Source: Daucus carota subsp. sativus (taxonomy: Eukaryota; Streptophyta; Magnoliopsida; Apiales; Apiaceae). From it: 64,000 nucleotides of DNA. Made by a program: the position numbers and the translations under genes. Positions 30,802 to 64,000 of the stretch are shown here, one piece after another (positions within the stretch are counted from its first letter, which is position 1; each line of letters opens with the position of its first letter). The stretch is taken from positions 38,872,689 to 38,936,688 of the forward strand of contig NC_030381.2 in the NCBI RefSeq assembly GCF_001625215.2. The letters are read 5' to 3'. A model generated the notes under the pieces. That model worked only from the letters and a program-made list of their open reading frames with translations, did not search any database and was not told the DNA's origin.

Positions 30802-31377
30802 AAGTATGAAACGGGCGGAGCTGCAGGTCTTTATCAGCGTGTACTTTGGCCCTCCTTGACTGAAGTTAAATACTGCTGTAAATGTAAGAACTTGGATACT
30901 TTCAATGTGGAAATATATTAGGTCTTGGTTTCATCAGGCGTAGCATTATTATCTCACACTGAGCGTAACTATGCTTTGTTATTTCATGTAAAAATTAACT
31001 GAAAGCAGTTTTTCCCTTCGGACAGGGATATTTTCTATAGTTGTCTACTGTATGGTCTGTGCTGTTTGTATTAAGGAACTAGGTACTCATTTGAAACACT
31101 TGCTCCAATGAGCTCTTCCACATCGTTTAAATTGATGCTTATTTAGATAAAATCCGGTTGATTCAAAAAAAATTAATGATATATTGATAAATTTGTTTAT
31201 TGATAGAAATGTGACAACTAAAATGGAACGGAGGGAGTACATAAATTAATGAAAGAAACGAGGGTACCAAAAAACGGATTGCCAAATACAAAGTTGAATT
31301 AAACATGCAACTTGTATGACAAGAAAAATAATCCAAAACTCATACTATAAATTAGAGACAATATAAACATTTGAATC
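30802..31377. other. RPB8 3' UTR and PPR gene promoter
   Basis: Contains the RPB8 3' UTR and, at about 31205-31240, a lone right end of a Stowaway-type element (GGAACGGAGGGAGTAC) without a matching left end. Nothing else seen. Confidence 0.5.
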
Positions 31378-33132
31378 TTGAAGTTTCCCGCCATAATATT
31401 ATATCCACCAGCAACAATGAGCAAGCTGATGATTCAAACCACCCACCCAATTCTAAATTTGAGGCACCCATCTTTCGAATCGTTCATTTGGAACACTCTC
31501 ATTCGAACCCAATCTCAATCCAATTCATCTTGCTCCACTAATGCCATTGCTTCCCCCCTCTCTATCTACTTTAGAATGCGATTTCACAATGTCTCGCCTG
31601 ATTTTCACACATTCCCCTTTCTTCTACCTTCCTTCAATTCCCCTTCCCACTTCTTGTCTGGCCAAAATATCCATTCCCAGATTCTCCGCTTCGGGTTTGG
31701 TTCTGACCCTTTTGTTCAAACTTGTTTGATTAACATGTACTGTTTTTGTGGTCATTTGGGTTGTGCACACCAAGTGTTTGATGAAATTGATGAACCGGAT
31801 TTACTGTCGTGGAATTCGATGGTGAATGCGAATGTGAAGATGGGGTTGGTTGATGTGGCGCGGGGGTTGTTTGATGCAATGCCGGTTAAGAATGTTGTTT
31901 CTTGGAGTTGTATGCTTAATGGGTATGTTAAGTTTGGGAAGTATAAGGAGTGTTTGGCGTTGTTTAGGGAAATGCAGAAGTTGGGGGTGGATTGTGTGAG
32001 GCCTAATGAGTATACGATGTCGGTCTTGTTGTCTGCGTGTGGGAAATTGGGGGCGCTTGAACATGGGAATTGGGTGCATGCTTATATTGAGAGATGTGGG
32101 ATGGTGATTGATGATGTCTTAGGGACTTGTTTGATTAATATGTATGCGAAATGTGGGAGGGTTGATAGGGCGAGATGGGTTTTTGATAATTTGGGTTCGA
32201 GTAAGGATGTGATCACGTGGAGTGCCATGATCTCTGCCTTTGCTATGCATGGGCACTCTGCTGAGTCTCTTGCCTTTTTTTCAAGGATGATGTGTAGTGG
32301 GATTAAACCTAATGCTGTTACGTTCTTGGGTGTACTTTATGCGTGTGTGCATGGTGGATTAGTGAATGAAGGGGAGGCATATTTTGAGAAAATGACTAGG
32401 GAGTTTGGTATTGTCCCTTCAATCAATCACTATGGTTGTATGGTTGATCTTTACGGAAGAGCTGGTCTTATTGACAAAGCATGGAATGTTGTTAATTCAA
32501 TGCCAATGGAGCCAGATGTTCTTGTATGGGGTGCTCTTCTAAGTGGGTCTAGAATAGCTGGGGACATTAAGACATGTGAGATTGCAGGCAAGAAATTGAT
32601 TGAACTAGAACCTACAAATAGCTCAGCCTATGTACTTCTGTCAAATGTGCATGCCAAGTTGGGTAATTGGAAGGATGTCCGGAATGTACGAGATCTTATG
32701 GAGACAAAGGGAGTCAAGAAAGTTCCTGGCTGCAGCTTGGTGGAGCTGGATGGTGTAATACATGAGTTTTTTGTTGGAGATGAGTCTCATCCAGAGACGA
32801 GGGAAATATATATGATGCTTCAGGAGATGATGAGCAGATTAAAACTAGAAGGATATGTGAGCAACACCGGAGAAGTATTACTTGATTTGGATGAAGAAGC
32901 AAAAGAGAAGGCACTTTGGCTTCACAGTGAAAAATTGGCAATTGCATTCGCCATATTAAAGACAAGTGCTGGTACACCTATCCGCATTGTAAAAAACCTA
33001 AGGATATGTAGAGATTGTCATGTTGCCATAAAGATGATATCTAATATATATGGTCGAGAGATTGTTATAAGAGATTGTAACCGCTTTCACCATTTTACAG
33101 AAGGAATATGCTCCTGTGGTGATTATTGGTAA
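31378..33132 (+). CDS. Pentatricopeptide repeat protein, PLS class with E/E+ and DYW domain
   Basis: Organelle RNA-binding protein of the class that directs C-to-U editing of chloroplast or mitochondrial transcripts. A single intronless frame of 584 residues. PPR repeats run from about residue 90 to 400, with clear units such as DLLSWNSMVNANVKMG, NVVSWSCMLNGYVKFGKYKE and DVITWSAMISAFAMHG. The E region follows (AYVLLSNVHAKLGNWKDVRN), with a PG-box KKVPGCSLVELDG. The DYW domain is complete: HSE at 516-518, CRDCH at 544-548, HH near 571, CSCGDYW at the end, so deaminase zinc ligands are all present. The start could be residue 1 or Met14/Met18; the N-terminus is Thr/Ser-rich and short for a transit peptide. 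Target site cannot be told by eye. Confidence 0.95.
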   Translation: MKFPAIILYPPATMSKLMIQTTHPILNLRHPSFESFIWNTLIRTQSQSNSSCSTNAIASPLSIYFRMRFHNVSPDFHTFPFLLPSFNSPSHFLSGQNIHSQILRFGFGSDPFVQTCLINMYCFCGHLGCAHQVFDEIDEPDLLSWNSMVNANVKMGLVDVARGLFDAMPVKNVVSWSCMLNGYVKFGKYKECLALFREMQKLGVDCVRPNEYTMSVLLSACGKLGALEHGNWVHAYIERCGMVIDDVLGTCLINMYAKCGRVDRARWVFDNLGSSKDVITWSAMISAFAMHGHSAESLAFFSRMMCSGIKPNAVTFLGVLYACVHGGLVNEGEAYFEKMTREFGIVPSINHYGCMVDLYGRAGLIDKAWNVVNSMPMEPDVLVWGALLSGSRIAGDIKTCEIAGKKLIELEPTNSSAYVLLSNVHAKLGNWKDVRNVRDLMETKGVKKVPGCSLVELDGVIHEFFVGDESHPETREIYMMLQEMMSRLKLEGYVSNTGEVLLDLDEEAKEKALWLHSEKLAIAFAILKTSAGTPIRIVKNLRICRDCHVAIKMISNIYGREIVIRDCNRFHHFTEGICSCGDYW

Positions 33133-37800: not shown

Positions 37801-38802
37801 AATTAACTCATACATTATTCAACAAACAACATTTACCTGCCCCACTGCTGCTGCAGAATTAAGACCCAAATCAGACAGAGACGGAATCTCCCCAGGCTCT
37901 ACATCTCCTGCTTTAGGCAACCCCTTCAACTGATCCAACGCTGCTATTGTCTTCCTAACCTCCAAACCTTGAACTTTCTCCCTGAACCCCCCATAATTAG
38001 TCGGCATTTCCTCCAACTTAAATGGCAAATCCTCAACATGATACAATGTACTTCCCCAGAAGTACTTAACTTCCAACCCCTCATCTTTCATCACATTCTC
38101 AATTTTCCCCTCGGCCTTAACCTCATCATGCGAAACCTCTTGATGCGAATAAACCGCTTCCGCCCCAACCGCCTTAGCCAACTCAGCCAAAACCGACTCC
38201 GGCTTCCCGATCCTCACCACCAAATCCGACCCTTTCGCCTGCAAATTCTTCCTCAAATCCGACACAGACTCAATCAAAAATGTAGCTCGATACGGGCCCG
38301 TCTTATCGAACCCACTACTCGATTTCCCATAATCAGTTGGGTCAAAACAATACACCGGAAGCACAGACATAGACTCATTATTAGCAGCAGTGAGACACTC
38401 ATTGTCATTAACCCTAAGATCATTTCTAAACCAAACAATCGAAGCCCTCCGTAACCCAGCCGCATTCGAAGGCTCAGAAGGGCGTTTAGGGTTCAAGAAC
38501 AGAGTATTCTGTAAAGGGGTCGGAGAGACGGTGGACTTAAAGAACGGCTTCTGAGGAGAGAGAGTGGAGCAAGAACTAGAGAGAGAAGCGTCGTAAAGAG
38601 CAGAGATTTGCGACGGGATTTTGACTCTAGACGGAGAAGACGAGAAAAGGGAAGTGATTTTAGGAGGGAGGAAGAAATGGGTAGGGAGAAGTGAGGAGAG
38701 AGATAGTGTAATTGAAGCAATTGGGAGAGATTTGGGGAGAGAGAGCTGTTGGGTATCATTTTTATCTTCTTGGGTATCTGGGGTTTGTAATTTGGACTCC
38801 AT
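34825..38802 (-). CDS. PHR2: Photolyase-like blue-light receptor PHR2
   Basis: Plant photolyase/cryptochrome-related protein of the PHR2 type. Coding exons (minus): 37837-38802, 35285-35514, 35088-35189, 34825-34903, all GT-AG, give 458 residues (about 447 in Arabidopsis). The first 110 residues are Ser/Pro/Leu-rich, likely a plastid transit peptide. The photolyase N-terminal alpha/beta domain starts at RRASIVWFRNDLRVNDNECL, with VLPVYCFDPTDYGKSSSGFD, FLIESVSDLRKNLQAKGSDL and EVKYFWGSTLYHVEDLPF. The part after VGGETEA.. has ANFSCRISPWLAMGCLSPR and NWLVYELLWRDFFRFITKKY, the start of the FAD-binding region. As in other PHR2 proteins, the long C-terminal FAD domain of true photolyases is absent, so repair activity is doubtful. 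The 2.3-kb first intron holds a Stowaway MITE. Confidence 0.95.
35583..35805. mobile_element. Stowaway MITE in PHR2 intron 1
   Basis: 223 bp with ends CTCCCTCTTGTCCATTATAT and ATATAATGGACCAGAGGGAG, flanked by TA (35581-35582, 35806-35807). The interior has AAAATTTTCTTTTTCTGG, shared with 26236-26449. Confidence 0.9.
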
Positions 38803-41340
38803 TTCTCGAGGGATTGGTGGGTGAAGATGAAGAAAGAAGAAGATAAGCTAATGTATGTCTGAAAGGATGTTTGGTGTGAGTATTGTATGTATATGTTGTG
38901 GCAAAGGGCTAATTGGGCTGCTGGACTAGCTACCTAACCTCTAGTTTTACCAACTTATATCACTTAGTTGCCTTTTTGGGTTGGTGAGAATTTATCAAAA
39001 TTATTTTCCTTCACAGGGTTTATTTATCAACCGGGTTTATTTATGACCTAGAGTCAAAGTGCCGTAAAAATTGTTGTATTGTTAGGAAAAATGCTGGTAA
39101 AAAAAGTGTTGTCGTAAAAATCAGATAACTGTTTGATAATCTTTTTAATATTTGCTTATTTTGAGTTATAATTTTTTTAAAAATGATTTTTTGATGAGGT
39201 TTGATAGTGAAATCTGTAACAGCTTACTGCAAAAGCTAAAAAGCAGTTTTTTCAAAAGAATGGGAGGATCTATTTTTGCTAAAAGCAGTTTTTCCAAAAG
39301 TATGGCAGCGCCTGTTTTTTCTAAAAACAGCTTTTTAAAATTTACCAAACAGTTTTTCACTTGTTTTTCATCAAAAAACTGGTGTTACTGCCTGCAACAG
39401 CAACGCCAAACAGTATCTAAATTAAGGTCCGGAGTGCTATAGAAATCAAAAACCGAAACTAAAAAGATTTATCAAATATTTTTTAGAAATCTGAAAATTT
39501 CTAGTTAAATTAGTGCAGAATAAATAAATTAACAAAAAATTTAAAAATTAACAATAAAGTTTTACAACAGTGATGGTATGTTTTTTTCTCCCCCGAGGAG
39601 TGACGGTATGTTTTAAGAACTAAAAGGTTTTTGTTTTGTCGAGGTTTATATATAAGATTAAAGCGTGGATAAAAAGGTTAGGTGGGTTTTATCGTTGATT
39701 ATCTATTTAAACTTGTTTTGGGCTTGGTATATGAACACGTGATCCTATTTCAAAGTCCTAACTACGTGGTAGATGTGGTTAGTGAAGAACGCGGGTCGTT
39801 GGTCGGATTAGAGGAGAAAACACGACCGAATCTATTTAATTAGTTTATGATTATTCTAACCCATTAATCTAAAAGTATATTTTTAATCTAACATTAATTC
39901 GTTATCACGGTTCACTTTTGAGATAGAAATATAAAATTAAAATCTAACATTAATTTGCAGATATTGAAAATTTGACGTAAATTTTGAAGTTGATTTTTTT
40001 TTGACCGGAGAGCATGACCATAAGTAGACCTATTTTTGACGTAAATTTTGAAGTTGATTTTTTTTAAAGTTATATACTGACTTATATTCTTGTTGTTGTT
40101 TTTTTTATTTTTCAAGATTCTTGGTAGAAGACGGATTTTTCTTTTCAAACATTAAAGTTTTATTGTCTAAATTTTCCCGGTCATCTTGCATGTCCGACAG
40201 ATAGATAATAAGCTTTCTTGAATGAAAGAATTATCACGGTGAATTGTCGGTTCATTTTTGTGAGATTTATTCTCATTTTCAAAAACAAAATTAATAAATG
40301 ATCAAATATAAAATTGATGAGTTGCAGAAAGAGTGTTATAAATGATCAAAAATTATGGGCGACTGCTATTTTAAAGATCATATTCACATCATACCACCCA
40401 TGATTTTAAGCAACAAATTTCATGTATAAAAGCAAGTCCTTAATTAATCGATTTGAGTATACTTCAGTAACTTTTATCACCTGACATGATATTGTTGTTG
40501 AATATTTTAAACTCAGATGAAACTTATATTTATAAAATATATGTATTTATCAATTTTACAAACTTAAATATTAATATATAATTTATATAATATAACGGGT
40601 TGTGTTCTGTTGGGTTGAATAAGGGTTGAGATTTGTTAAAATTTGACCCAGCCTATTCTGATTAAAGAAAAATGAACTCATTAATACTTCGGTTTTGGAT
40701 GGTTCTGACTGATCGGGTTAAAAGGAAGTGGGCTGGGTTGATTTTGCGGATTATTCGGGTTTTTGTTCACCCTGATACTAGGCTACGCACTTAAAAAAAA
40801 GGATCAGTTTTTAGCTACCAGTATTAAAGAAAGGATTATATATATATATATAGGGGCTTATTCCACTACAAACCACACTCTCATACAAACCTAAAAACCA
40901 CTATTTCCACTCCCATTTTTGCTATGAGCACTCCAATCTTTTTATTTTTTATTTTTTTTTGATTTTCAGGGGGGCCCCACTGCTGACATCATCTGCCACG
41001 TCAGCACTGGGTCAGTCCACTGCTAACGTGGCAGATGACGTGGCACTGCCACGTCAGCAGGTGCTGACGTGGCCGATGACGTGGCACTGCCACGTCAGCA
41101 GTGGGTGTGACGGTGTGACCCAGTGCTGACGTGGCAGTGCCACGTCAGCAGTGGGGGGACCCCCTGCGCTGACGTGGCGTGGTGATGTGGCGGGGTGGAA
41201 AGTGTAAGTTTGGGGAAGTTGATGGCAAAGCTGGGGGGGGGGGGATATTGTTAGTTTTTAAGAGTTTGGGGGGATATTTGTTTAGTTTTGAAATTGGTTT
41301 TTAGGTTTTTATGATAAAGTTGGTTTGTATTTGAACAAAC

Positions 41341-41954: not shown

Positions 41955-44207
41955 ATGGAATGTTTGGCGGGTATCGCCCCTGCAAATCTTCTTCTACGCC
42001 CATCACACTTTTGCTCTTACAACACTCGCAAAGCTTTTAGATTAAACGCCAATTTCAACCCGGCCCGGCCCGAGGAAGAAGACCCGTTACTCCGCTTTGC
42101 CACTACTCGTGCTTCACTTCGTTTCAAAGAAACTATTTCTTCAGGCAATTTCAACTGTCCCCTTTCATTCTCATTGCATTCTTTTATATAAAAATTTAAA
42201 ATACTTTTGGTTCAGGCATTTCCTCAAACAGTTGCTAGGCGTTTCTAATTGTAATTTTCACCTCATGTTACTGTAGTAACGTTTAATTGGTACATAGAGA
42301 GTTAACACTGATGTGTAGCAGAATGATTGCATATTCATATTTAATATTCTGATTTTGTTGTTAACTAACAATATACATGTTACTATGTTAGTACTAAATC
42401 ATGAAAAAAAGTTTAAATCTATGTTGCAGAGCCTCTTTTTATCGACACGTATTCGGCCTGTTTCGGTCCTACTGCTGAGTTGGATGCAGAATACCATAGC
42501 AATCACTACTGTCTGGCCACTAAGTTCATCGATGATAAATTGCTTGCTGTGATCAAGAATATAGATGGAGTTAAGCAGGTACACCGTGCTAGTGTTTTCA
42601 GAAAGTAACTGATGTTAGTGGTTAGAATTTCTGTTGGCCCTTATATCTGTGCAATGCAGGTTGTTCTGTTGACAGATGGCATGGATACGCGGGCATATCG
42701 TCTCAACTGGCCCAGTTCTACCATAATTTATGATATATCTCCAGAAAATGTATTCAATCGAGCAGCTCAAAAGCTCAAAGGTAGGTATTGTTCCACAGTA
42801 ATTCTATTTTTTTTTAAAATTTCATAATCGTTGAAGCAAAAGCGGATATGATATGATGTTTGGCAATAATCGAAAAATGTCTCATGATCCTAAATGTTTT
42901 CTCAGCATACATTTTGGTATTGACACTTTGACAGTGTTTTCTTGAGAAACTATCAGATGTCGGGGCAACGATTCCAAAAAACTGTATATTACTTCATGTG
43001 CCAGTGCAGTCATTTAATATGGAACAACTATGCATGAAAGGATTTACTGGTAACCAACCAAGTCTATGGGTATACCAGGTAGCAAAACCTTTTAATTTTG
43101 ACCAATTCTGCGACTCTTTTCACTAAAAAATTAATTGTGCTCAGGATTCTTTATTTTAGGGGTTTCCTGTTGTGAATTTGGTACACTTTAAAGAGATCCT
43201 ATCTCTTGTCAGTAGTTTAGCCATGAAGGGATGCCTGTTTTTGGGAGAATTGCCTGTCTGGTTGGTAAAAACTGAAATCGGGGTGCAGGTCAGTTGATTT
43301 CACAGTGTTTGTGTATGCTGTCTTCATGAGTAGCTCTGGTATAGTAATGACTTTAGATTTTTCTCATATTAGTGGCCCATAAATCAATGGCTGGACAAAC
43401 TTTTCATGACCTACGGTTTCAGAGTGAATATTATTGCCTATGATGAAGTTGCAAGAACCTACAGCAAGCACTTGATTCCAGGAGAGCACACAAGCATCCT
43501 TTTTGTAGCTGAACACTTGCGGTTTTCTGATGATCAGGTTAGGTTTTAGAATATCAGTATGAGTTATATTGTTCGCATGCTGCTCAATTTGGCAAGTCTC
43601 ATGCCTGACATTTTTCTTTGCATAAGTGATCAAAGATCAAGTTGAACAGTCTTATACACAATATTCTAGAATCAGGGTTACTAAATAGTACTAACAGCCT
43701 TTATAAATTCATAGTAAATCAACTAGTTTCAGCTTTTTTACGTGCGAGCACCTACCCTTGTGATTACATTAAGCTTGTTGTAATTGCAGGTAATATCTTT
43801 TTTGCCTTGAAAAGGTAAAACATACTGAGGAAAAAGTTACTGTGAAACCTTAGATAAGGTTTGGGTTGGGCAGCAGTTTACAAGTATATGTAGGAGTTAA
43901 TGATTATGATAGAAATTAAATCAACTTAATAGCAGAAGAGAGAATATTGCTCCTACAATTATATTTTATACTAGTTACTGCCGCCTTTGTACTCGTCATT
44001 ACAAACTTGAACATAACGCTCAAATCATCTGCATAATTGTTAAATAAGATTTCTTTGCAATATTTATATGTATATGCCGACTATTTACATGTACACTTCA
44101 AATTTCTTTGTTGGTCGTATATTTGCATCTCATAGATGGAAACTTGGAGAAACGTATATCAGAGGTTAGAGGAAGAAGCAGATGAAGAAGGTTTCGAGGA
44201 GCTATAA
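41955..44207 (+). CDS. SAM-dependent methyltransferase of the LCMT/PPM1 superfamily, likely plastid
   Basis: Seven coding exons: 41955-42144, 42430-42578, 42660-42780, 42957-43078, 43160-43288, 43373-43537, 44136-44207, giving 315 residues. The first 45 residues lack acids and are rich in Arg, Ser and Asn, suggesting a plastid transit peptide. The SAM-binding motif is VVLLTDGMDTRAYRLNWP (114-131), the DTR form of the leucine carboxyl methyltransferase superfamily. EPLFIDTYSACFGP precedes it, and AMKGCLFLGELPVW, ILFVAEHLRFSDDQ and an acidic EEEADEEGFEEL end are typical of the uncharacterised plant branch. The first intron uses a GC donor (CAG|GCAATT); without it the frame stops early and EPLFIDTYS is lost. 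The acceptor at 42957 was chosen over 42935, which would bring an early stop. The methylated substrate is unknown. Confidence 0.85.
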
Positions 44208-47200: not shown

Positions 47201-48610
47201 TATTGTTAGGTTATAATTATTTTTCACCAATAATTTGATATGTAATTCTTAATATCATATTAAGTAACGAGTTTATTTCAAATCTTAAAATGTAACTTAT
47301 ATTAATTGAGATTGTTCGTTTTATATTTTGATATTGTTAAACAACAATTATACACTTAAATATTTTGATATTGTTAAACAACAATTATTCACTTAGATTG
47401 TTCATTGCAGTCATGTTCAAGTATTCAGTGCTTCACAACAAAATCTAACTTACGAATAAGAATTTCACAATAATATTACATTTTAGGTTGATATTTTGAT
47501 ATTGTTAACTAAGGATTGTTTCATTGCAATCATATTTAAATATTGAGCCTTTCATAACAAAACCTAACTTATATTTCGCAATAATATTACATTCCATCAT
47601 AATTATTCAAAGACGATAAGACGACTTAACTTAATTCTTTAATATATTCAAACGATACAAAGAAAAGAAAAGATAATATAAGTCAATAAAAATATTTAAT
47701 TTGCCTATAAAATTTTAATTATAATTAATTTCATATAACTTTTGAATAAGCCCAAAATTTATTCACTTTTCATCAAATAGAATTTGTATTTATTATTAAA
47801 TATAATGTGGGAAAACGAATATTGAAAAAGTCTCATGAATCAGAATTTTTGATTTTTTTAGTTTTAGAGAGGACTATCTTATATTCGATGTAAACGTGAT
47901 ATTTAATATTTGTTTTATATTTCAATCTAAACATTCATTAAAATTTAATTTTGTTAAAAATGATAATTTAAAATAAATTTTAATAATTTATTTAGATTAA
48001 CATATTTTTATAAGTCTATTAAAATAAAATTTTAATGATTAAATCCGTTTTTAAAATAAATTAATCTAAATATGATCGGTAAATATGAGAGAAATACTTC
48101 ATTACATTTTCCACAATATTTTGTTCAATTTGTTCAATTTCATTCTATTCTTTTTAACTAAACAAAATATTAGTAGCGTACATTTTAAGGAAAAAGATAT
48201 TTGTTTATAAAAGTCTTTCAACTTTCAGGTTTACAATAATATTTTAAATATAACAAGCATGCAGTTAAGTTTGTTTAAGCACAAAACATATTTTCAGAGG
48301 CTATTGAATTATTATTTTTTGCCCAAAGAGGCTATTGAATTTAACAAACTCCTCAAATAAACTATTAGCTATCTGCCTGAACTAGCTATAAGGCTAGCTA
48401 CCATGCACTTTCTGAAAGTGTTAGTATGTTTATTGTTTCATCAATTGGTGTAGCAAGACTATGTACTAATATAATGCAACCCTAAACGTAGCTGGTTTTA
48501 GATACAAGATAATTACTAAGACAAGTAAAAAGTGGGCAAGTACTGTATACAATTGAGTTTCCCATTTGCCTTGGATGATGCCTATACTACTTAACATCTG
48601 CAATCTGCAT
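44208..48610. other. Intergenic, no gene recognised
   Basis: AT-rich. Contains a piece of GGAATGAAATTTG-type MITE at about 44820-45010, a fuller one at 45671-46035, and diverged direct repeats at about 47320-47580 (TTGATATTGTTAAACAACAAT and CATTGCAxTCAT..TATT). The stretch 46080-46690 is less AT-rich and has short frames on both strands but no family match. Confidence 0.45.
45671..46035. mobile_element. MITE, GGAATGAAATTTG family
   Basis: Left end GACTGTTTATTTGGATGGAA and the inverse of the right end, GGTTGCGTTCATTTGGATGA, pair imperfectly. It shares AATGAAATTTG with 53117-53411. No clear target duplication. Confidence 0.5.
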
Positions 48611-48688
48611 AAACCATGCATGTCTCGCTTTGAATAAACATGCATGGCCAAACCATGCATGTCTCGCTTTGAATAAACATGCATGGCC
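48611..48688. repeat. Two tandem 39-bp units with CATGCATG palindromes
   Basis: Two identical units (48611-48649, 48650-48688) each hold CCATGCATG at the left and CATGCATGG at the right, so each unit is also an inverted repeat. CATGCA is the RY motif bound by B3 factors. The block lies about 60 bp beyond the MIR164 hairpin, on the 3' side of the likely primary transcript. Confidence 0.85.
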
Positions 48689-48751
48689 ACTTAACACAAC
48701 ACACATGGAAGAATGTGAGATGAGAAGATGAGCATTACTACACATATATAT

Positions 48752-48853
48752 GTGATGAGGAATCCTAGTTGGAGAAGGGGAGCACGTGCAAATAGGCCGG
48801 AGTGGATCGGTTTGCACGTGCCCTGCTTCTCCAACAAGGGACTTGCTCATCCA
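48752..48853 (-). ncRNA. MIR164: MIR164 precursor hairpin
   Basis: The minus strand of 48813-48833 is a 21-mer starting TGGAGAAGCAGGGCACG and ending TGCA, identical to canonical plant miR164. It lies on the 5' arm. The 3' arm (minus strand of 48770-48790) reads TGCACGTGCTCCCCTTCTCC and pairs with it over the whole length, with only two adjacent mismatches and one G-U pair, across a 22-nt loop. The stem continues outward after an internal loop through GGATGAG/CTCATC (48754-48759 with 48846-48851). miR164 directs cleavage of NAC transcription factor mRNAs (CUC1/CUC2, NAC1 and ORE1 types), which act in organ boundaries, lateral roots and ageing. Which MIR164 paralogue this is cannot be told. Confidence 0.95.
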
Positions 48854-48910
48854 TGCAGTTGATGAGATGCCCAGAGATGATAATGAAGAAGGAAGACAAG
48901 GGAGGTTCTG

Positions 48911-48918
48911 TATTTATA
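48911..48918 (-). promoter_or_regulatory. TATA box for MIR164
   Basis: The minus strand reads CCTATAAATACAG, a good TATA box about 60 bp upstream of the hairpin. It would put the transcript start near 48880. The region to about 49300 should hold the rest of the promoter. Confidence 0.6.
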
Positions 48919-51330: not shown

Positions 51331-52024
51331 CTGCTAGTTGCAGAGGAGCCCTTCTATTCTACAAGCCTCGTTTCGCTTCACCAAGAGTGTATTAACCAAT
51401 CAGATCTTTCCTGTACCGGTAATCTTCGCATCTTTAAACTCGTTTGCTTTCATGTATTTTCGTGTGTATGCGTGTATGTATATATATATTCTTGATTGGG
51501 TTTTTTTTGAACTGTATAAGTCTGTGGAATTATTAGATAGATTTGAGCTAATATACTGTGACCAATTTGGTTTTAATGTTGTTATAAGATGAATTGATTC
51601 GATTAAGCTGAGCAAGTTATGATCTTGGTGGTATTAGCTTCAATACTTTTTGATAATTTGAAGAATGTCAAATATAAGCAGTTTGAATATGTATAAAGTT
51701 GGGTGATAATTATGACCTTGATATTGAGTTAATAGTGTTACAGACTTACAGTGCATTATGTTTGTCTTTTGCCCGAAAGATAGAATTTTTGTGATAATGT
51801 AAATCATTCTTCTATAATTGTTTTTCCTTGGAGTTTTTTGACAGTCAGTTTGTTTAAGGTTTTGCCGTTTTGTTGATCTAAATTATTATGCAATTAAGAG
51901 TTTAGTAAGTTGTGGTAAAGCTAGTTGTATGTGTAATGCATATGGGTTTTTTGGTAGCAGGTACCGTCAAATTTGGACCCCTTGCGTTTTTCCTGTAACT
52001 TGGTAGTTACTAGAAAGCCTAAGA
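51331..52024 (+). promoter_or_regulatory. MED28 leader with leader intron
   Basis: A leader exon ending at 51418 (TACCG|GTAATC) and an intron to 51960 (TAGCAG) are inferred from splice-like borders. The second leader exon, 51961-52024, runs into the ATG. Confidence 0.45.
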
Positions 52025-54614
52025 ATGGCTGATCGACAGCTATTGGATCAACAGCCACCTGCTGATGCACAGATGCAGTCTCCTCTGCCAGGAGAGGATA
52101 TGATTGCTTGTGTGATGGCTCTCGAGGCTGCTTTGCTTCCATGCTTGCCAGCAAGAGAGCTTCAAGCGATTGACCGTTCGCCCCACCCTTCACATCAGAG
52201 TGAGTGTCTATTTGTTTTGTACATATTCTAATTCATGCTTCCATGGAGACAAAAGCACAATACTTAGTTCTGTTCACTTCTCAATGTGTGACTTCTTTAG
52301 TTATCATTCCTCCATTTTGTTTCTAAATTTCATGACCTTTCCACTAATTTATGTAGTGCGCACATTTTATCAATCGCGAGGCATTTCAATGTATCATCTT
52401 ATTTAATTTTTCTTTATTTCAAGTTTGGAAATTCTGATCCATGAGAAATGTTTTTGGTAACCAAGAATAATGAATCAACAGATCTCACTTGATTGATTAT
52501 TGTGTAACTGTATATCAAAGTGTTAGAAGTATGTCTTTCCCAACTATGCAGGCAACTGACTGAAAACTTTATTTGTTATCATTCCAAGTACAGGTGAATA
52601 AGTATCAAACTAAAGCATAAGAAAACACAACCTAAATTAGTGATATCTAATACTCCCTCCATCTCATTTCTTGTTTGCAAATTTTACATATATTAAGAAA
52701 CATTAAATATGATGTCTTGTTCTCATTTTTATCATCATAATAACATTAATTACACAAGAATATAGCCAAGTGTTCACCCATTTTTTAAAATTTTATAGTC
52801 ATTTGCATGACAATTTTTAAATGTTGTGTGAGCTAATGATAATAGTCAACCTAGAAACTAGTATAAAATTTGTATTGGGTAAAGAAGAGGAAGAGGACAA
52901 GTATTGTGCGATTTTATTTTTTTTTTGACAAAAGAAGACTATTAAAATGAGATGGAGGGAGTATTAAATAGTAAGGATTTTCTTATTGACTATACTAGTA
53001 AGAAAGATGACTTTAAAAGCAGTTTGTAATTTTGTTCCTACAGGCTCTCGATATTTTCTAGAAATCTGAACTTTGAAAGACTTTCAGCTAAGATGATGTA
53101 TTACACAAGAGACTAATGTTGTTTGGTTGGGGTGAATGAATTTTGAAGGAATGGAATGAAATTTGAACTATACTATAAACAATTATTCAGATGTTTCGTT
53201 CCTCCCCCCATACACTTACACCTTATATACCAGAAGTCACACCCCCAATTTGAGAAGGAATACACCATTCTCTCATATACCCAATTTCTTCTCAAATCTC
53301 ATCATTACAATTTCGCACTCATTCACTTTTTTACGAAAATTCCCCTCCTACCTCTAGTAGTTTCTTTTATTTCTACTCATTCTACTCCATTCTCCCCAAC
53401 CAAACACAACATAAGGGATTGATTTTTTTAATACATCATTAATTGGGCCAAGGGAGCTTACGAGCTCGCCTCCAATTCCAAACAGTAGAAGCCAACTCGC
53501 TGAAGTTGAGAAAGACCAAAAACAGAACTATCTGTAGTATAGTATCACTATTTACTGTTCTCTCATAGTTAATAAGAATCAGCTAAATTAATATGTTTCT
53601 CTGTACAGTGTACCCCACTACCAGTATGAACCAAAAGAAAAGCCGGTACCAGATTACAATTTACAGGTGTATTAGTAATGCTAGCATCTGTTTCGACCTT
53701 TGATGGTTTGAGCGGATCTTATATTTGTGAGGATCCTAAGCCCTGTTATAAGTTAGTTCTGTGAGAACCATTGTTGTTGTGCAGTAAGAATGCATTTTTC
53801 TCATGTCATGTGTTCCATATCATTTTTTTTAAAATTGCAACGAGCTTTATTATTGAGTACTATAGTATGTCATAACGAAATCAAGAAAAAAAACCCAATG
53901 ATGCTTACATTATGTTGAACCTGCTGTAGAAACACCGAGGGTAATCATTTACAAAATTACGCAAGCCACAAGTTTGAAGTTTTCAGTCAAATTCAGAACC
54001 TGTCAAAGATTACTAAATTGAGAATTTAAAGCGATCCTATGTATTGTGGTTTAAATGATTGTTAATATGCATGCTGCAACTGGTGTTGTTTCTTAATTAC
54101 ATAAGTACCTGCATGATTTCTAGTTTAATTATGTTGTCAATCGTATTTTTATTTGTACTATGTTCAGACTGGAAAAATCCACTTCTGCCTTTTCTAAATG
54201 AACTAAGAAGGTCGCTATACTTTTTTAAAATTTCAAGTTGAACATTTTTTAATTTGCAATGTTTTATTAGTTGATGTGGAGAGACATGCCAGAGACTTTA
54301 TGGAGGCTGCAAAGAAGCTCCAGCTTTATTTCATAGGTCTGCAGCGGGAGGATCAACCAACCAACGCCGAACTGCTCAAGAAGGTATTTATGGTCAATTT
54401 GTGATGTATGTATTGAATCTCATTCTGGATATCTTTTGTGAAACCAGAGTTTGATTCATTGGTTGTTGGCGTTTGATAGGATATTGCTGTGATGGAAGAA
54501 GAGCTGAAAACGAAGAATGAGCTTATCAAGAAGCAAGAAAAACTGATTCAAGGATGGAGGAAGGAATTACAAGACCAGTTAGAAAAGCACAAAGTTGAGT
54601 TAGAGAGGGTATGA
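52025..54614 (+). CDS. MED28: Mediator complex subunit MED28
   Basis: Head-module subunit of the Mediator complex linking transcription factors to RNA polymerase II. Coding exons 52025-52199, 54271-54383 and 54480-54614, GT-AG, give 140 residues, the usual plant length. After a Gln/Pro-rich start (MADRQLLDQQPPADAQMQS) comes the conserved block MIACVMALEAALLPCLPARE and LQAIDRSPHPSHQ; exon 2 gives IDVERHARDFMEAAKKLQLY and FIGLQREDQPTNAELLKK; the last exon is a Lys/Glu coiled coil ending in QLEKHKVELERV. The Ile codon is split across the first intron. That intron, 2.07 kb, contains a Stowaway (52653-52961) and a Tourist-like MITE (53117-53411). Confidence 0.95.
52653..52961. mobile_element. Stowaway MITE in MED28 intron
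   Basis: 309 bp with ends CTCCCTCCATCTCATTTCTT and ..AAAATGAGATGGAGGGAG, flanked by TA (52651-52652, 52962-52963). Confidence 0.85.
53117..53411. mobile_element. Tourist-like MITE in MED28 intron
   Basis: Inverted ends TGTTGTTTGGTTGGGG and CCCCAACCAAACACAACA, with a TAA target duplication (53114-53116, 53412-53414), as in PIF/Harbinger elements. 295 bp, no coding. Confidence 0.75.
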
Positions 54615-60320: not shown

Positions 60321-61712
60321 TTAAACATCAGGACTATCTTTAGTTGATACAGAACCAGAGCTCCCCATGATCTTAGAACAATCCATCTCCCTCAACTTGA
60401 GCAACAAAAACAAGACAATCCCACATCCAAATCCCAATGCAGCACTAGACCCTGTCATAGACACAGCAGCACACACCAACATCACAAAAGACTCTTCCTT
60501 TGTGTTCATATCTCTTGATGCCATTGCTAACTCTATCCCAGCAAACAACAATAACACTCCCAATATCCCAATTGGGAACTCTCCTAATATCCTCACAAAT
60601 GAATTCCCAAATACCAGTCCTAATATCAATTTTCCGAGGCCTAGAAACACGACAGAGGCGCCACTACGAGCACCAAATCGATACTGACCAGCTAGGCCTC
60701 CTGCACCGTGGCACACTGGCATTGCACCGAACCAGCAACCAACTAAATTCATAAGTCCAACACTGACTGAGACTTTCGCCACTGAAGCTTCGCGGTCAGG
60801 GAACATATCACCGGACAATTTACAAACAGCAATCACCGAATTTAGTATAGATAATGGAATTTGAGGGATCGCGGCTTTGAAAAATCCGATTTTCCAGTCA
60901 TCCCATGTGATTGTCAGAACATGAAACTTGGATGGACCAAATTTTAAATCTTTAATGATTGAAGGGTCTCTGACAAAACACAAAAATAACCCAATTAGGA
61001 AGACAATCAGAGCAGCTGGAATAGCTGACAATAATTTCAATCTGCGTCTCCTAAAACGATCTGATGAACTCACGGTTTCTCCCGGATGGATAGGTTGCCC
61101 TAATTCACCCGACCCTGTTGACAAAACAAGAAAGCACAGACATGATATCGCTAAAATCAGACCATCAAGACCCAACCAAGAACGAGCCCCTCCAGATTTG
61201 TTAGCAGCAAAGTCTTGATCATAACGGATATACTTAACAGCAGAGAACGCAAAATTGAGTCCTTGCGAAAGCTGCACACCACGGACGACAGGGAGAGGGA
61301 TGTACTTATAGAGCACAGACATGAGTCCCGTGGAGCCGAGGAACAGAAGGGTGACAGCTGTGCAGATACCACCAGTGGCGATCTGCGGTAGAGTCAGGGA
61401 GTCTGAAAGCGCGACAGAGGCAATAGACTTCATGGGCTGGACAGGCATGGGGATGGAAAACAGGAGGCCAGTGGAAATGTTGTAGAGGGCAGTGAAGATG
61501 AGAGTGGTGGAGAGGTCAAGGTGGGAAACAAGAGTGAGAGCTAGGACGATCGGGATATACGTGCCTAAGTCGCCTACAGAGCCACTGATCTCCGAGGAGA
61601 GGCTTGTTTTGAGGCGGAGGGGATTGGTAAGGTGGTGGTACCATCTTCGGGGCTCGTTGTCAGGAAGCAAAGGCGCGGTGATTCTTGGGGATTCTTCTTC
61701 CATGGTTTTCAC
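60321..61712 (-). CDS. MOT2: Molybdate transporter, MOT1/SULTR5 family (MOT2-like)
   Basis: Membrane carrier of the sulfate-transporter-like MOT family that moves molybdate, needed for molybdenum cofactor enzymes such as nitrate reductase. One intronless frame of 463 residues, the family length. It begins MKTMEEESPRITAPLLPDNE (Met4 is an alternative start), then has the family marks ISGSVGDLGTYIPIVLALTL, IFTALYNISTGLLFSIPM, PVQPMKSIASVALSDS and PLPVVRGVQLSQGLNFAFSA, about ten hydrophobic spans, and the second-half mark CHGAGGLAGQYRFGARSG. There is no STAS domain at the C-terminus, as is known for this family. The SxEISGSVGDLGT start, LDLSTTLIF and the LL in the N-tail fit the vacuolar MOT2 branch better than MOT1, but this was judged from memory of the family. 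Confidence 0.9.
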   Translation of the reverse strand: MKTMEEESPRITAPLLPDNEPRRWYHHLTNPLRLKTSLSSEISGSVGDLGTYIPIVLALTLVSHLDLSTTLIFTALYNISTGLLFSIPMPVQPMKSIASVALSDSLTLPQIATGGICTAVTLLFLGSTGLMSVLYKYIPLPVVRGVQLSQGLNFAFSAVKYIRYDQDFAANKSGGARSWLGLDGLILAISCLCFLVLSTGSGELGQPIHPGETVSSSDRFRRRRLKLLSAIPAALIVFLIGLFLCFVRDPSIIKDLKFGPSKFHVLTITWDDWKIGFFKAAIPQIPLSILNSVIAVCKLSGDMFPDREASVAKVSVSVGLMNLVGCWFGAMPVCHGAGGLAGQYRFGARSGASVVFLGLGKLILGLVFGNSFVRILGEFPIGILGVLLLFAGIELAMASRDMNTKEESFVMLVCAAVSMTGSSAALGFGCGIVLFLLLKLREMDCSKIMGSSGSVSTKDSPDV

Positions 61713-64000
61713 CTGTAACTAAAAATTGGTTGACCTGAGAAGCATAAGAGTATATACTGTATATATATGCTAAGCAATATCTACATATGATTGGATCGGA
61801 GATATGGGTGCCTCCTGAGTTGCGTCAGGAGTCAGAATTGGTATAATTTTTTGAGAGAGATGGATTAGCGTGGTCCATTAGATAGAAAGATATCAAGAGC
61901 TGTAATGAACTGATACCGCATCTATCAGTTTCGCCATTTGTATCCTTATAATTAATTATTGTAAAGACAGAAACTTTATAAATGCTCCGGTGTCATCCCT
62001 GCATACAAGTGAAGTGAACGATATAATACCAAAAAAAAAAATACAATGAATTTAAGGGGTGTTTGGATTAAGGTTGGGAATGGGAATCGAGAATGGAAAT
62101 GGAGGGTATGGGAATGAGAATGATAGGAAATCCAGAGGATGAGAAGGATATGATTTAACTACGCAGAAGGATTGAGGTTCCTATTCCATACAACCAAATA
62201 ACCAATCCAAACATTTATGCATGAGATTGAAGTTTCAATTCTCGTTAACGGACTAATTAACTATAAACCAAACACTCACTTGGCATATTCTATTTATTAA
62301 TATAGCATCCACTTTTGAGATCTGAAAGGCTACTTACTATTCATTCTAAAAGTAAAGCATCAAGATTCAAGAACCGAATGCAAAAGCCAGCAAATCTAAA
62401 TTAACAGACTTGCAGACTCATATCCTGGAGCATATGAATAGGACAAGAGGATGATAATTTCATACAAGTTTGCTATTTGCCATACATTTAGCAGATACCT
62501 CCTTCACTGAGAATGTTTCTCTTGATTGTTTGCACTTCACAAACTCCTTCCCTTCTCCTTCTGCGCACACTTCTACAATGACATTGTCTTACTCAGGGTA
62601 TGCAATACTAACCATCTGTCTGTATTGACAAAGGGAAACAAAGGCAACACACACTATTTCTCTGTAAAGATAGTAGGTCGTACACAGTCCTGCTGCAGAG
62701 ATACTTCACTAATCTACCATAATAGCTAAGTAAAGTTTTAGGCTATCAGAGATCCTTCCGTTTGCTGTGCGACTTTTCTGTATCCCTCCAATTCATCACA
62801 ATGAGATTGAGATGTCCTGCATTACTAGGTCCGCTTACAAGACTTATATTAAGACTACAACTGAAGAAAATATATCTGCCCGCCTTGGCTACTTCCACAA
62901 AACTTTGAAACTATATATAATCTGTTTCTTTGCATAACAGGAACCAACAAGTCATTACAAAATTTCACCCTGTGACACTTGGGAGACCTAAACTTTACCA
63001 GATTCCAGCTCTTAACAATGGTCTTCCAGGAAGCAATTAGTGAAACAACCTGCAGCTTACTACAACTATAAGGCATAAGCTAATGCATTCTTACAAAATT
63101 TACTTCAAGATATTCTTGAATACCACTAGATAACAAAAAATTAGAAATGCATTATGTACTTTCGACTACACTCCCCTTGTATTCGAAAACACAAGTAGAT
63201 TAAGAGACTGTTTTTATATGATTAAGCTAATACATGACAGAAAATCATTATCTGCCATCTAGACTTTTATATTGTTCGCCCTTGAGAAATTATCTCCACT
63301 TTTTCGCCTCTCTAGACTCACCTTGGCAATAAAAAGAGGTTCCAAAACTGAGAATTTTCGAACTTAATTGAAATAGATAATATCTCATAGCAACATCCTG
63401 GCTTCTAGACCATAACTCTGCAAGCTTCAATACTCATAACTGTAAACAGCGTAAGTGATAACCTTTCAAAAAACGCCCTCAGTTCCTCAAGATCTTTTAC
63501 AGCAAGAATTAATTAATATTATAAAATTGTGCAACAAACAAAACTAAGAAAAGAATCAAAAATAAGAACTGATCACTTGTAAAATGATTGTAGGCTGCAG
63601 CTTCAATCAGACCTTCTGCTGATCCAGCTTCAGCAAGCACTAACAGTGAACACCCTATCCACACTCAGAGTTGATTGGTGCTCTTTGCAACTCTGGTCCC
63701 TATACCTTTATGAAGTTTTCTCCGCAATCCGGATTGCCCTGAAATTCCTAGTTTAAATGCAAACACTTCTAACTCTAATGATTAAGCAGGTCGAAGATTG
63801 AAATCTTATTTTGTATGTAGGAAAAAAAATTAAGAGAGATTAAGGGTAGAAAGAGAGTGAAGTGAGATATCTTTGTGGTGATTGCTCCATCAGATTCATT
63901 TACTATGTATAGCTCAGGGAGTGAATGCCAAAGAATTGTCAAAACCAGGCGGTGCTGCCAATTGCTCTGATTAGAACTAGTGGAGTGATGACTCTTGTAG
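61713..64000. other. Transporter promoter and unassigned right edge
   Basis: 61713 to about 62040 is the transporter leader/promoter. A MITE lies at 62054-62281. From 62282 to the end I recognise no gene; the sequence is less AT-rich than other spacers and has splice-like signals on the minus strand (for example CTAGGAATTTCAG ahead of a short frame at about 63700-63745), so it may be UTR or intron of a gene that continues right of the window. Confidence 0.4.
62054..62281. mobile_element. MITE, GTTTGG family, copy 2
   Basis: Ends AGGGGTGTTTGGATTA and the inverse of AACCAAACACTCACT pair imperfectly. The interior repeats GGGAATGGGAAT and has GCATGAGATTGAAGTTTC..CTCGTTAAC as in 26867-27073. Confidence 0.5.

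Follow-up and report, generated by a model that had tools for sequence, protein, structure and literature searches.

The question raised by this locus is whether a short inverted repeat lying between protein genes of the carrot genome is a microRNA gene of the MIR164 family and, if it is, on which strand it would be read, from which promoter, and against which messages. An initial annotation of the window, by which we mean the whole 64-kb stretch of DNA analysed here (C1:38872689-38936688), had proposed such a gene. The proposal is supported by the mature sequence, the arm that carries it, the geometry of the duplex, the intergenic place, the paralogues and the NAC targets, and the locus is almost certainly a carrot MIR164 gene, whose minus-strand Pol II transcript would yield a DCL1-cut duplex guiding AGO1 to NAC mRNAs. 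It is an ordinary, well-formed copy, one of six MIR164-like copies found in the genome.

Conservation of miR164 extends across the flowering plants, and the NAC genes act in boundary, root and senescence control. In carrot, two reports place miR164 among the abundant families in small-RNA libraries of two colour types (PMC6405255) and among the families found again in a salt-stress study (PMC10700493). What is already in print is the MIR164 family and its carrot miRNA.

The hairpin and the two strands of its duplex occupy the following positions.

48750-48854, minus strand: MIR164 hairpin, paired foot to foot, at C1:38921438-38921542 (minimum free energy determined over 48740-48865)
48813-48833, minus strand: mature miR164, 5′ arm, 21 nt, exact match
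48768-48788, minus strand: predicted miR164 star, 3′ arm, set by 2-nt 3′ overhangs

The exact 21-nt miR164 of the family reads from 48833 to 48813 in the 5′ arm of the minus-strand hairpin, as the initial annotation had it. It is the single exact copy within the window; the only other match there at up to three mismatches is the opposite arm, on the plus strand, and 100 shuffles of the window gave no match, even at three mismatches. Folding of 48740-48865 on the minus strand, which had been proposed beforehand as a check, returned a stable hairpin: the 126 nt from 48865 to 48740 had a minimum free energy of −55.8 kcal/mol, compared with −28.9 kcal/mol (sd 3.6) for shuffled sequences (z −7.50), and none of 200 shuffles folded as well. 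The hairpin had been placed at 48853-48752; the locus stands, and the computed limits of the paired stem are 48854 and 48750 instead. With the star at 48788-48768, the duplex leaves two of the 21 miRNA bases without a partner, in a symmetric 2×2 internal loop, and includes one G-U pair, in agreement with the two mismatches previously read in the star. As is expected of a MIR164 gene, miRNA and star lie together in the one stem with few mismatches and without a large bulge. The stem goes on beneath the duplex, where its 5′ side spans a further 21 nt, of which 16 are paired (counted by eye), and a paired stem in this position suits base-to-loop processing.

That the genome is carrot is borne out by an exon at C8:28228076, whose product departs from the solved carrot allergen Dau c 1 (2WQL) at 3 of 94 residues, counted by eye on the alignment; another exon, on C7, is nearest to the celery allergen Api g 1, with Dau c 1 second, and one of a latex-protein-like gene on C8 did not point to a species. 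The miR164 pattern was searched for at up to three mismatches in the whole genome (441,086,747 bases in 11 contigs), and all 27 matches were sorted; the same pattern read backwards gave no match genome-wide. By chance, both strands of the genome would be expected to hold 0.0002 exact matches and 7.6 at up to three mismatches with equal bases, or 0.00001 and 1.04, respectively, at the base composition of the window. The exact 21-mer was found at four loci, each time on the 5′ arm of a hairpin (C1:38.92 Mb, the window copy; C1:43.76 Mb; C6:20.44 Mb; and C8:0.53 Mb), and a variant ending in CACATGCT in two further hairpins, at C5:0.43 Mb and C6:14.04 Mb, the latter with position 1 of the miRNA unpaired and no star set. 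The remaining matches are two opposite arms (on C1 and C6, other strand), six sites in NAC genes, six in KIB1-4 genes and seven others, which include two pairs alike by eye (L016 with L027, and L019 with L028).

The copies at C1:43.76 Mb and C6:20.44 Mb share with the window copy an identical miR164 and the same star layout. These two are closely related, aligning at 73% over 287 columns in the region of the hairpin, whereas the window copy aligns with them over only 81-84 columns at the hairpin (BLAST, 3-kb loci), with one further 71-column match to the C1:43.76 Mb locus, far downstream. All three retain both arms; beyond the hairpin, most of the sequence flanking the window copy has drifted away from theirs. 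The C8:0.53 Mb copy (L005), which we take to resemble the MIR164b type, has an identical miR164 but a much longer loop, a different star and five unpaired miRNA bases. With the MIR164 family as a whole (Rfam RF00647, which presumably includes Arabidopsis MIR164A/B/C), the window locus has in common the exact 21-mer on the 5′ arm, the stem, the small loop and the NAC targets; there is no notable difference, except that the window locus alone has a 39-nt tandem repeat in its 3′ flank.

Upstream of the hairpin lie two features of a candidate core promoter.

48911-48918, minus strand: TATA box TATAAATA, core promoter
48884-48890, minus strand: inferred transcription start region, ~30 nt downstream of the TATA box

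The initial annotation had pointed to a TATA box ~60 bp upstream. We found TATAAATA at 48918-48911, with its first base 85 nt upstream of the miRNA 5′ end and ~58 bp upstream of the end of the hairpin as first drawn. Since the window holds 21 occurrences of this 8-mer in 128 kb of strand, one of them beside a hairpin is a weak sign alone. The position, however, recurs: CTATAAATAC lies near −85 in the window copy and near −82 and −90 in the C1:43.76 Mb and C6:20.44 Mb paralogues, and TATAAATAC is retained at −82 to −90 from the miRNA in all three. Upstream of the hairpin, the window copy shares little with the other two beyond CTATAAATAC; those two can be aligned with each other through the promoter stretch, so that the three TATA-bearing loci count as about two independent witnesses. 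Neither TATAAAT nor TATAAAA was found within 100 nt at the remaining three MIR164 loci. The recurring position supports the presence of a core promoter belonging to the window MIR164 itself, as far as sequence can tell, and an independent transcript from a start near 48888 on the minus strand is the natural inference. The start region was placed by the usual TATA-to-start spacing (PMC10533097).

The locus had also been described as lying between two protein genes, which holds loosely, in that ~5 kb and ~3 kb separate it from the closest genes that could be recognised. These genes, and two further features close to the hairpin, are as follows.

42417-43549, plus strand: LCM-like methyltransferase gene (exons); Pfam PF04072, E 4.4e-08, for one of the four exon frames tried, the other three being read by eye
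52007-54404, plus strand: MED28-like gene (exons); Pfam PF11594 at 54207-54401, E 5.8e-06, 27.1 bits, under the cut-off of 29
48765-48854, minus strand: first-ATG frame after the inferred start, 29 codons, through the hairpin; probably not a gene
48611-48688, minus strand: two exact 39-nt tandem copies with palindromic core CATGCATG, downstream of the hairpin

The first exon of the MED28-like gene, at 52007, was read by eye from its likeness and gave no Pfam match, and beyond this gene an RRM gene lies on the minus strand at 55.2-55.5 kb. Farther off, we take 60321-61718 (minus) to be a molybdate transporter-like frame, 37819-38847 (minus) a cryptochrome/photolyase-like frame and 31375-33132 (plus) a PPR protein-like frame, all by eye. 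A protein gene nearer to the hairpin was considered and rejected: none of the 40 stop-to-stop frames of at least 50 residues between 43630 and 52006 reached the Pfam cut-off, and eight of them gave weak, below-cut-off matches to unrelated families.

The 29-codon frame probably runs through the hairpin by chance. The first-ATG frames of the two closest paralogues have 4 and 34 codons and different starts, and the HVLPFSN that the 34-codon frame shares with the 29-codon frame is merely the translation, in one and the same frame, of the conserved star arm; we do not claim a miPEP from the primary transcript, the paralogue frames differing in all but this stretch. The tandem repeat lies ~80 nt downstream of the star, inside the presumed primary transcript, and its copies pair into a second hairpin with a long stem (fold of 48600-48700, z −5.25). 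A dispersed element was rejected as its source, because a genome search with 48560-48740, which skips simple repeats, returned the place in the window and no other.

The strand deserves particular attention, because the antisense strand of the hairpin folds about as well as the sense strand (−62.4 kcal/mol, z −7.33) and because RF00647, the one Rfam match over its gathering score in the window, lies on the plus strand, opposite to the miRNA, at 48770-48835 (70.7 bits against a gathering score of 64), whereas the minus strand scores 48.3 bits, below that threshold. Taken at face value, these values would favour transcription of MIR164 on the plus strand, or on both strands, with a miR164-like RNA arising from the antisense hairpin. 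We consider this very improbable, because the same preference for the strand opposite to the miRNA is seen at all six carrot loci, three of them weakly: the opposite strand scores 60.6 against 46 bits at C1:43.76 Mb and 61.5 against 44.9 bits at C6:20.44 Mb, and at L005, L009 and L012 it alone is matched, at a weak 29-32 bits (E 0.0035 to 0.014), so that among the six the window locus alone passes the gathering score. In the RF00647 consensus, the 3′ arm contains miR164 in reverse complement and the 5′ arm likewise the star; the strand preference is therefore a property of the model, which, read from the printed consensus, looks like a description of the antisense strand of MIR164. Among the papers listed for RF00647 and for strand errors, the titles and abstract openings contain no mention of an antisense RF00647. 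Antisense transcription according to the Rfam strand was accordingly rejected, and the sense direction is taken to be minus, because this strand bears the exact miR164 as well as the TATA box, whose word recurs in the paralogues, and because the paralogues themselves point that way. An annotation made from Rfam alone would misplace the gene in the window, and the other carrot MIR164 copies that Rfam detects, onto the wrong strand.

Two other readings accept or deny the hairpin itself. That it is a chance inverted repeat or part of a protein-coding exon might be suggested by the open frames that cross it on both strands, the longest of 108 codons; a Pfam search of this frame at E 0.1 found nothing, in keeping with the initial description of the open frames as shadows, and the fold (z −7.5), together with the 0.0002 or 0.00001 exact 21-mers expected by chance on both strands of the genome, makes such an origin so remote that it can be practically disregarded. 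More plausible, although still improbable, is a decayed or silent copy in which the hairpin is intact and the locus untranscribed, miR164 being made by the other copies. Four loci encode an identical 21-mer, so published miR164 reads single out none of them, and the case for transcription of the window locus is built from features of its sequence. These features nevertheless argue against decay or silence: its two unpaired miRNA bases are the fewest among the four exact loci, tied with the copy at C6:20.4 Mb, the TATA word is retained, and a long-silent locus would be expected to accumulate mismatches in its arms. For the same reason of identity, 21-nt reads are unassignable to the window locus, and 21-nt star reads are not locus-specific either, because the C6:20.4 Mb copy has the same star; reads from the loop, the primary transcript or the star are the only ones that might help to assign expression to this copy.

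The complementary sites expected of a MIR164 gene were found in NAC genes, into which six of the 27 genome matches at up to three mismatches fall. In each of the six, a NAM domain match precedes the site by ~300 to 820 bases on its strand, and the site sits in an open frame following the end of that domain. The peptide encoded at the site is HVPCFS in four genes, HVSCFS in one and QVPCFS in one. Under a common plant miRNA-target scoring, the pairing penalties are 1, 2, 2, 2, 2 and 3, with positions 10-11 paired in all six. Judged by their sequences, the six sites fit the expected miR164-NAC circuit, in genes that we take to be of the CUC, NAC1 and ORE1 kinds. A transcript made by Pol II would start ~30 nt past the TATA box at 48918-48911 and run on the minus strand; it folds, by computation, into the hairpin 48854-48750, from which DCL1, as in the family generally, would release the 21-nt miR164/miR164* duplex. 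miR164 would then guide AGO1 to the NAC mRNAs, with cutting expected at the site identified downstream of the NAM domain. Most likely, then, the product of this carrot MIR164 locus is a small RNA that cuts back the mRNAs of NAC growth-control genes.

A further set of matches lies in genes for KIB1-4 beta-propeller proteins.

C7:1201853, C7:1208134, C8:773142, 781992, 791752 and 801276: KIB1-4 sites (loci L013, L014 and L023-L026, each at 1501-1521)

The miR164-like sites in these six genes have penalties of 2 (the two genes on C7) and 3 (the four on C8), resembling those of the NAC sites; membership of the family was tested on one C7 and one C8 protein and extended to the other four genes by similarity. 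The site covers the conserved protein motif VSTCPAS[PS]DC. A similarity search gave 32 matches; 30 were retrieved and 28 cover the site, some loci being one gene counted twice. Where the motif differs, penalties run from 4 to 13, and another gene that does have this motif is penalised 5. The chance expectation at up to two and up to three mismatches is 0.39 and 7.6 with equal bases, or 0.04 and 1.04 at the window composition, and the latter values make a chance origin of these sites less likely. The six may descend from one or two chance matches, held since by the protein motif. A second family of targets may have been gained by miR164 in carrot, formed by the two C7 and four C8 KIB1-4 genes through coding sites that pair like those of NAC genes; we regard this as improbable. 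With the NAC genes as the expected targets, naming the locus, its strand and its paralogues lets work on carrot NAC genes pick the right MIR164 copies.
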